DNA of 64,000 nt, taken from positions 62,001-126,000 of the forward strand of contig JAJZLY010000025.1 in the NCBI GenBank assembly GCA_021850485.1, written 5' to 3'. Numbering within the stretch: position 1 is the stretch's first letter; each line of letters starts with the position of its first letter. This DNA is from Bacillota bacterium. Lineage in GTDB: Bacteria; Bacillota; Sulfobacillia; JAJZYS01; JAJZLH01. The position numbers and the translations under genes were made by a program. This document shows, one piece after another, positions 22,790 to 25,342 of the stretch. The notes beneath the pieces were generated by a model. That model was not told where the DNA came from and did not search any database. It saw nothing but the letters and a program-made list of their open reading frames with translations.

Positions 22790-23083
22790 ATGGCAGCCTT
22801 GCCGACCCACCCCAGCCTGCCTGAGGCTGACGTCCAGCGCATCATCCGCCGCCTTCGGCGAATCGAGGGCCAGGCCCGCGGCGTTCAGAAGATGGTCACT
22901 GAGCGCCAGGCCTGTGGTCTGGTCCTGACTCAGCTTGAGGCGATGCGGGCGGCACTGCAGCGCACCAAGGTGGAGCTCAGCATCTGCCACGTGCGTCAGA
23001 CCCTGGCCGGACAGCTGCCGGATATGGACGCCGAAACAGATCTTTTGGTGCGTGAGACGATCTCCACCCTTTCCCGACTCTAA
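22790..23083 (+). CDS. CsoR/FrmR/CstR-family transcriptional regulator with atypical ligand set
   Basis: A 97-residue all-helical repressor (DUF156 family). The signature IRRLRRIEGQARGVQKMV is intact. Sensor residues: Cys42 is in the first ligand position and His67 in the second, but the third position (71) is Thr, so it lacks the C-H-C copper site. An extra Cys66 sits beside His67. A Cu(I) sensor is thus unlikely; a thiol/persulfide, formaldehyde or other electrophile sensor is possible. ATG 22790 follows GGAGGGATCGC. The gene lies under its own palindromic operator and 6 bp before an MFS transporter. Confidence 0.88.
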   Translation: MAALPTHPSLPEADVQRIIRRLRRIEGQARGVQKMVTERQACGLVLTQLEAMRAALQRTKVELSICHVRQTLAGQLPDMDAETDLLVRETISTLSRL

Positions 23084-23089
23084 GGCACC

Positions 23090-24238
23090 GTGTCGAGTCG
23101 ACGGCTGTGGTGGTCGTTCGTACTGTGGAATAGTGGCGCAGCACTATCGGCCCTGTTTATTGACGCGTTTTTGTGGCACCGCACCGCATCCTTGCCCCTG
23201 GTCGTCTCCTACCAGGCCAGCTTCTTCGTCGGCATGCTGCTCGCGTTCACCGCCTGCCGCGCCATGTCAGTCACCCGTATGAATCTGGCCGCCGCCAGTG
23301 CGTTCTTGCTCACCGTGGCGATGGGCTGGGTGGCCCTGTTCCAGGTCCTGGCCGTGCGCTTTCCGACCCCGCTTGGTCTCGTCACCGGTCTCGCATACGG
23401 GCTGTTCTATTTCGCCTTCTACCACGCGCTTCAATACGCGACGACCGAGAGTCATGACCTTCTCAGCAGCCGAACCGGCCTGTGGGAGGCGGCAATCTGG
23501 TTGGCTGGCCCATCGCTGGCTGGGCTTTGGCTAAACGTCGCCGGCGCCTCCGGGTATGGTGCGCTCTTTGCGGTCAGTGCCGTGGTCTTTGCCGTAGCGG
23601 CCCTAATCGCCCCAGCTGCCCCTCCCCTCTTTTGTCCGCTGCCAACGCCGGCGCGTCCGGACGAGTCATTGCCGTGGCGATGGCTACTTGGAGGCCTGAC
23701 CTTGGTTGGTCTCAGGGAGGGCGCTTTGGCGCTACTGCCTGCGCTTTGGCTGTTTGTGATCACGGGCCAGCCGTGGCTTCTGGGCTTATACGGAGCAGCC
23801 GTCGCCGCCAGCGAGGCGTCTGGCTATCTCTTTGGACGCACCCTGACGCCGTCGATCCGTCGCGAGGTGTTGCTGACCTCATCCTCCGCTCTAGCGCTAG
23901 CTGGCGTTGTGATCCTGGTCTGGGCCGGTCCACAGCCGTGGTCGCTGATCGCCTTCGGAACGGTGGAAGGTGCTGCCTCGGCCTGTCTCAGGTCGGTAGC
24001 CGAGGCGAGCAGTCTTGACTTGATCGGCTCTCGCCGTTCAGGCGCCACCTTCGCCGTTTCCACCAAGGAGCAGGCCCTCAACGGCGGCCGCTTGGCAGCC
24101 GTGCTTTTTCTCCTGGCTGTCGTCTCCGCAAGCCATCTGACCATGGCCCTCTCGTACCTGGCCTGGCTCAGTCTGCTGGCGGTTCCGGCGGCCCTGGTGC
24201 TTCGGGACCGGCACGGAACTGCGCAAGCGGCCCCTTGA
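23090..24238 (+). CDS. MFS-type transporter
   Basis: A 382-residue protein with about ten to twelve hydrophobic helices. Charged residues in the loops, such as the SVTRMN loop and the NGGRLAAVL helix start, suggest the major facilitator superfamily. GTG 23090 begins 6 bp after the regulator stop, so the two form an operon. The substrate is unknown. Control by a thiol-type CsoR relative and proximity to sulfur-transfer genes hint at an anion or sulfur compound, but this is inference. Confidence 0.7.
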   Translation: MSSRRLWWSFVLWNSGAALSALFIDAFLWHRTASLPLVVSYQASFFVGMLLAFTACRAMSVTRMNLAAASAFLLTVAMGWVALFQVLAVRFPTPLGLVTGLAYGLFYFAFYHALQYATTESHDLLSSRTGLWEAAIWLAGPSLAGLWLNVAGASGYGALFAVSAVVFAVAALIAPAAPPLFCPLPTPARPDESLPWRWLLGGLTLVGLREGALALLPALWLFVITGQPWLLGLYGAAVAASEASGYLFGRTLTPSIRREVLLTSSSALALAGVVILVWAGPQPWSLIAFGTVEGAASACLRSVAEASSLDLIGSRRSGATFAVSTKEQALNGGRLAAVLFLLAVVSASHLTMALSYLAWLSLLAVPAALVLRDRHGTAQAAP

Positions 24239-24303: not shown

Positions 24304-24651
24304 ATGGCGTGGTTTCTCGGTTCCCGCCAACCACGGCCCCAGATGACGCCCGCCGAGTTGGCCCGGGCCTTGGCGGGGCCCACACCGCCTGTGGTCCTGG
24401 ACGTCCGTGAGCCGTTTGAGTGGCGATCTGGTCACATTCCGGGCGCCAAACTGATCTCTCTGGGCCAGCTTCCCCAACACCTGGCCGATTTGCCCAGGGA
24501 CAAAGAGATCGTAGCCATCTGCCGCAGCGGTCACCGCTCCATGGTGGCGTGCAGCCGATTGGCAGCTGAAGGTTTCCAGGTCAAGAATTTGGCCGGCGGT
24601 TACCTGCACTGGTCCGGAGAGCTGCAACGACCCCAGCAAGGAGTGCGATGA
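24304..24651 (+). CDS. Rhodanese-domain sulfurtransferase
   Basis: A 115-residue single rhodanese domain. VVLDVREPFEWRSGHIPGA and the active-site loop with the persulfide-bearing Cys in CRSGHRS are present, and GGYLHW closes the domain. It should carry persulfide sulfur between small thiols or proteins in the cytosol. It is the first gene of a unit whose next genes are DUF302 and a glutaredoxin-like selenoprotein. ATG 24304 follows GGAGGTTACCCG. Confidence 0.9.
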   Translation: MAWFLGSRQPRPQMTPAELARALAGPTPPVVLDVREPFEWRSGHIPGAKLISLGQLPQHLADLPRDKEIVAICRSGHRSMVACSRLAAEGFQVKNLAGGYLHWSGELQRPQQGVR

Positions 24652-25067
24652 GCATGGGTACGGTACAAGAAGTCGGCGCTTTTGGCCTCGATTTGGTCAC
24701 GGACAAGACGGTGGACCAAGCGGTCGAGGCCATCTCTCAGTCTCTTAAAGCTCGGCAGTTCGCCATCCTGTGGGATTTGGACATCCCAAAGAAGCTAGCA
24801 GAGAAAGGGCTGAGCGGCACCCTCCCCTTCCGGGTCTTGGAGGTGTGCAACCCCCAGCTAGCCCAGGCCGCCTTGGGCGAAGACGCCATGGTCGGCTACT
24901 TCCTTCCCTGTAAAGTGGTTGTGTACGCCCAAGCGGGCCAGACCCACATCGGCCTGCTGCGGCCAACTACCCTGATCGGCCTGGTGCAGAACCGCCAGCT
25001 CGTACAGGTGGCTCAAGACGTCGAATCCACCTTGCTGGCGGTCATTACCGAGGCCGCCGCCGATTGA
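24648..25067 (+). CDS. DUF302-family protein
   Basis: A 139-residue protein with the DUF302 pattern: an initial GLDLVTDKTVDQAV segment, WDLDIPKKL, then FRVLEVCNPQLAQAAL and VGYFLPCKVVVY. Two conserved cysteines (in EVCNP and LPCK) could be redox-active or carry sulfur. DUF302 genes often accompany rhodanese and sulfur-oxidation genes. ATG 24648 overlaps the rhodanese TGA (ATGA); a second ATG lies at 24654. The function is unknown. Confidence 0.82.
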   Translation: MSMGTVQEVGAFGLDLVTDKTVDQAVEAISQSLKARQFAILWDLDIPKKLAEKGLSGTLPFRVLEVCNPQLAQAALGEDAMVGYFLPCKVVVYAQAGQTHIGLLRPTTLIGLVQNRQLVQVAQDVESTLLAVITEAAAD

Positions 25068-25111
25068 CCCCCGCTCCCCACTCCAGGTCGGCGCTGAAAG
25101 GAGGGATTGCA

Positions 25112-25342
25112 ATGGCCAATGTGGTGATCTACACCACCTCCACCTGACCCTGGTGCCACGTGGCGAAAGAGTTTCTTTCGCAGCATGACGTAGCGTTCAC
25201 AGAGAAAAACGTCAGTTTGGACCGCGAGGCTGGCGTAGAGTTGGCTCAGCTAGGTTCGCAGGGGGTTCCTACCTTGGTGGTTGATGATCAGGTGATCATC
25301 GGCTTCGACCAAAACCGGCTGTCCACACTTCTCCATCTCTAG
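25112..25342 (+). CDS. Glutaredoxin-like selenoprotein (Uxx-star type), in-frame TGA read as selenocysteine
   Basis: The frame from ATG 25112 (GAAAGGAGGG box 7 bp upstream) runs 76 residues to TAG 25342 if TGA 25145-25147 is read through. It gives VVIYTTST-U-PWCH, placing U12 and C15 exactly at the glutaredoxin CxxC. The remainder is a glutaredoxin fold: EFLSQHDVAFTEKNV, then GVPTLVVDD with the cis-Pro, and IIGFDQNRL. A family of 'Uxx-star' glutaredoxin-like (seleno)proteins is known, which I recall rather than searched. A SECIS-like hairpin follows the TGA. Plain gene annotation would start it wrongly at GTG 25160. A stop mutation of a former Cys codon is the alternative. Expected role: thiol or persulfide reduction with the rhodanese and DUF302 partners. 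Confidence 0.85.
25148..25180 (+). promoter_or_regulatory. Candidate bacterial SECIS element
   Basis: Within the coding sequence just after TGA, CGAAAGA (25164-25170) and TCTTTCG (25174-25180) form a perfect 7-bp stem with loop GTT. The loop begins 23 nt after the TGA and has G in its first position. Both agree with the known bacterial rule: small apical loop, G near its start, 16-37 nt from UGA. A second palindrome GCCACGTGGC precedes it. Confidence 0.7.

Follow-up and report, generated by a model that had tools for sequence, protein, structure and literature searches.

Selenocysteine (Sec) glutaredoxins are already known, as UXX-star/YruB-like proteins and as Grx1 of Clostridium (Alkaliphilus) oremlandii, and Sec glutaredoxins are among the experimentally verified selenoproteins (PMC13188914). 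In C. oremlandii the protein is natively a selenoprotein; its motif is U(C)PxC, and both dithiol and monothiol forms have been described (PMC7642778). The gene reported here, which lies in a window of 64,000 nucleotides (that is, the whole stretch of DNA analyzed), adds one example to this group: its sequence and conservation indicate that positions 25112-25342 almost certainly encode a selenoprotein in which UGA 25145 is read as Sec. The features of the locus, compared where possible with the corresponding locus of a same-genus genome (G001; JAJZLH010000052.1, Bacillota MAG MAS3.bin100, assigned by position and identity), are the following:

22790..23083, forward strand: CsoR/RcnR-family repressor (Pfam Trns_repr_metal, 66 bits); kept in G001
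23090..24238, forward strand: multi-pass membrane protein, transporter-like by eye, with no family match; not found at the G001 locus
24304..24651, forward strand: single-domain rhodanese with a CRSGHRS loop (Pfam, 68 bits), probably of the same operon; not found at the G001 locus
24648..25067, forward strand: DUF302 protein (Pfam, 60.7 bits), probably of the same operon; adjoins the glutaredoxin gene in G001
25098..25104, forward strand: Shine-Dalgarno sequence AAGGAGG, 7 nt 5' of the ATG; AAGGAGG likewise precedes the G001 gene
25112..25342, forward strand: predicted Sec-glutaredoxin gene, 76 residues, UPWC motif, TAG included (Pfam Glutaredoxin, 61 bits; PDB 7c10, 1.2e-19)
25145..25147, forward strand: in-frame TGA, predicted selenocysteine codon 12, at the first redox position (among relatives, 26/50 TGA and 24/50 Cys)
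25163..25181, forward strand: putative bacterial SECIS hairpin, 8 bp stem (25163-25170/25174-25181) and GTT loop; the same-genus genome and genomes of another family have the identical hairpin, with a class-wide pattern

The predicted product scores above the gathering cut-off of the Pfam model PF00462 (22.9 bits), and its top PDB sequence match, 7c10, is identical at 32 of 73 residues. We infer that 7c10 is C. oremlandii Grx1 (cGrx1; 7c10, 7c12, 7c13) from the Cys/Ser pair of entries, with Ser replacing the second Cys in the companion 7c12; the entry codes were not found in the text of PMC7642778. The two proteins have the same length and a U(C)PxC motif, and both would be selenoproteins, but the C. 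oremlandii motif is CPHC/UPHC as opposed to the UPWC seen here. No curated cut-off was reached among the NCBIfam models. The best match, nearly full length, is to the YruB family (TIGR02196), with 78.1 bits as opposed to the 88.55 required, and the UXX-star models (NF041212, NF041211/NF041114/NF047338) describe similarly small, glutaredoxin-like proteins with Sec or Cys at the first redox position, although the score against NF041212 (57.8 bits) is below its cut-off of 66 and the second Cys is retained in our protein. The NrdH-redoxins (TIGR02194, 48.6 bits) share the small glutaredoxin fold, a GF motif near the C-terminus and, likely, the use of thioredoxin reductase, but their cut-off of 85.75 was missed and no ribonucleotide reductase gene was present among the neighbors examined. 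Eight other relatives tested also scored under the YruB-family and UXX-star cut-offs. Judged by these scores, the UPWC glutaredoxin would sit between the YruB-family and UXX-star models, and the locus adds a lineage rich in Sec glutaredoxins that score under the current curated models.

The original prediction of a 76-residue frame from ATG 25112, with TGA 25145 exactly at the first redox Cys, is borne out by the sequence, the frame ending at TAG 25340-25342. Since a strong Shine-Dalgarno sequence precedes this ATG, initiation is expected upstream of the TGA. Ordinary (table 11) ORF calling begins the frame only at GTG 25160 (ORF 25160-25342), so that, as had also been anticipated, the first 16 codons are lost; reading the TGA as Sec corrects an annotation that would drop the glutaredoxin active site. 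Codon usage alone would have missed this TGA, which ranked only 15th of 292 in a codon-usage scan of the in-frame TGAs in the window. When read through, 13 others look, by eye only, like the end of one gene with a second gene behind it, or like frames on the antisense strand.

Downstream of the TGA lies the hairpin GCGAAAGA-GTT-TCTTTCGC, whose apical loop is 23 nt past the TGA. The hairpin and GTT loop described originally were confirmed, except that the perfect stem is of 8 bp rather than 7 bp, and the distance is compatible with a SECIS as had been proposed. Specifically, the published bacterial SECIS model calls for a loop of 3-9 nt with G in position 1 or 2, a stem of 4-16 bp, 16-37 nt between UGA and loop, and a minimum free energy of at most -7.5 (PMC13188914), and the glutaredoxin hairpin agrees with each of these values (-8.6 kcal/mol for the hairpin). 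Among synonymous recodings of the same peptide, an equally good hairpin arose in only 75 of 20,000. However, in this GC-rich window an equally good hairpin also follows 136 of the 1723 TGAs (~8%), and the generic fold z-score is -0.59; hence, the hairpin as stand-alone proof was ruled out. The decisive evidence is comparative conservation together with the Sec machinery, rather than the hairpin by itself. In G001, the hairpin is identical letter for letter, and none of its seven codons changed compared to 40 of the 70 others (p ~0.003), which argues for constraint at the nucleotide level on top of that on the protein.

The comparison with Cys homologues that had been recommended showed Cys in 24 of the 50 relatives compared and TGA in the other 26 in that column; every TGA in these 26 was at the first Cys and none was elsewhere in the aligned domain. 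Extending the search, the pattern TGA-N6-TG-N9-GAARGAGTTYCTTYC gave 22 matches in 21 of the 154 genomes of the class, each being the U-x-x-C of a glutaredoxin, while neither the reversed control nor the pattern with spacing one base longer gave any match. All 21 pattern-bearing genomes were SelB-positive, compared to 102 of the 154 class-wide (hypergeometric p 8e-5). In the smaller genome set, one TGA-bearing genome (G025), a fragmented assembly of ~480 contigs, was absent from the SelB matches. Hairpin energies in relatives were lower after TGA than after Cys, with overlapping ranges (Mann-Whitney p 0.004, which is only indicative since the rows share kinship). A claim of stem covariation was dropped because the stem changes were mostly one-sided; in two relatives (L070 and L074), the 18-nt hairpins pair in a slid register. 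The tree of the 50 rows had too few columns to polarize Sec vs. Cys as the ancestral state. Nonetheless, these homologues from across the class (26 with TGA, 24 with Cys), together with the conserved SECIS, should help test Sec/Cys exchange and the evolution of SECIS recognition.

The original prediction implied selA, selB, selC and selD outside the window, and named the absence of all Sec machinery from the genome as the result that would speak against it. In the host genome (1.6 Mb, 97% complete), of which the window is part, selA (487 bits), selB (353 bits) and selD (348 bits, containing a single TGA in frame) were all found elsewhere, above their cut-offs, as was a tRNA-Sec with a UCA anticodon (72.7 bits, above the gathering score). 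The in-frame TGA of selD (L010; G000:C20:57266-58189, minus strand) is at the catalytic position (SGUGCK) and has an 8-bp hairpin just 3'. The same genome also carries a second Sec glutaredoxin, with a PGUGSC motif (L065; G000:C15:42822-43043, minus strand), which each of the three genomes of the genus retains (L065, L066, L067). The host genome thus has no fewer than three genes in which a TGA lies in frame at a catalytic position (the UPWC glutaredoxin, the UGSC glutaredoxin and selD). In the other same-genus genome, G002, the UPWC gene was not found, only the PGUGSC paralogue.

Alternatively, the true codon might be TGC or TGT, the TGA being a sequencing or assembly error in an ordinary Cys glutaredoxin, as the original prediction itself had considered; Cys relatives are, after all, common (almost half of those compared). 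Yet the G001 gene, which was assembled separately and differs at 44 positions, has TGA at the identical codon (the proteins being 88% identical), which makes such an error unreasonable, and neither a hairpin conserved to the last letter nor a full set of Sec machinery would be expected of it. We consider an error exceedingly improbable. A pseudogene, or a true stop followed by reinitiation at GTG 25160 to give a protein of 60 residues that lacks the redox motif, is in turn very unlikely. The table 11 ORF required for the latter does exist, but its product would be without the glutaredoxin active site, the strong Shine-Dalgarno sequence stands ahead of ATG 25112 instead, and conservation extends to the residues on either side of the TGA (IYTTST ahead of it, PWC immediately behind). 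Further, the whole gene shows a dN/dS of ~0.05 relative to G001 (dN 0.06, dS 1.30), although selection upstream of the TGA is poorly measured over the only 11 codons there; with both flanks conserved in G001, the frame is coding on both sides of the TGA as originally claimed.

A general reassignment of TGA (e.g., to Trp) as opposed to Sec decoding could draw on the in-frame TGA of selD as well. The TGAs, however, occur at redox Cys positions only, Trp is encoded by TGG directly beside the TGA (PW), and tRNA-Sec, SelA and SelB are present, which leaves this explanation with a virtually negligible probability. Under the preferred reading, the gene product is a selenocysteine glutaredoxin of the cytosol. 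Translation would begin at ATG 25112, the hairpin at 25163-25181 would recruit SelB and Sec-tRNA-Sec, and SelB would decode UGA 25145 as Sec to give UPWC, as the anatomy and conservation of the locus suggest. The substrate, such as an oxidized thiol or a persulfide, would then be attacked by the selenolate at position 12, after which Cys15 would resolve the intermediate. Such attack-and-resolve steps are established glutaredoxin chemistry.

With respect to the reductant, glutathione is named for C. oremlandii Grx1 (PMC7642778). In the 97% complete host genome studied here, by contrast, the two glutamate-cysteine ligase families searched, GCS2 and Glu_cys_ligase, had no match. Thioredoxin reductase is present, and the two observations together lead us to propose thioredoxin-linked rather than glutathione-linked reduction; that is, the reductant is probably NADPH-thioredoxin reductase, with or without thioredoxin. 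The spacing and linkage of the upstream genes suggest that they form one operon with the glutaredoxin gene. The G001 locus keeps the repressor, DUF302 and glutaredoxin genes, while the rhodanese and membrane-protein genes were not found there, and DUF302 and CsoR-family genes are also located near two Cys-type relatives (L027 and L049). By eye, the CsoR-like repressor has two Cys but lacks the His that a copper-binding CsoR would be expected to have, a pattern that may point to a persulfide sensor of the CstR type. A role in thiol or sulfane-sulfur (persulfide) stress is a tentative possibility, based on the repressor, rhodanese and DUF302 neighbors; no paper on DUF302 came up when the literature was searched for it in combination with glutaredoxin or rhodanese. 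It is more speculative still to see the protein as a selenium-dependent reductase for a CsoR-DUF302 (rhodanese) operon against persulfide/metal-thiol stress, in a lineage without glutathione synthesis, with repeated Sec/Cys exchange and a SECIS shared letter for letter across families.

A few additional observations were made among the relatives. Within one genus, nearly identical glutaredoxin genes carry TGA in two genomes (L042 and L046) and TGC in others (L034 and L030). A clear SECIS hairpin is missing from the TGA forms, which could mean either that Sec and Cys were switched recently or that the SECIS is unusual. The relatives L076, L077, L078, L080 and L081 form a Sec glutaredoxin subfamily of their own, with a PLUPHC motif; its SECIS-like hairpin, TCCTCTCGGCGAGAGGA, is of a different sort, very stable and spaced at 32 nt. 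In another subfamily, USVCNGTKEFLS (L073, L075, L094-L107), the frame extends upstream of the glutaredoxin domain in a conserved manner, which suggests a longer or fused selenoprotein.
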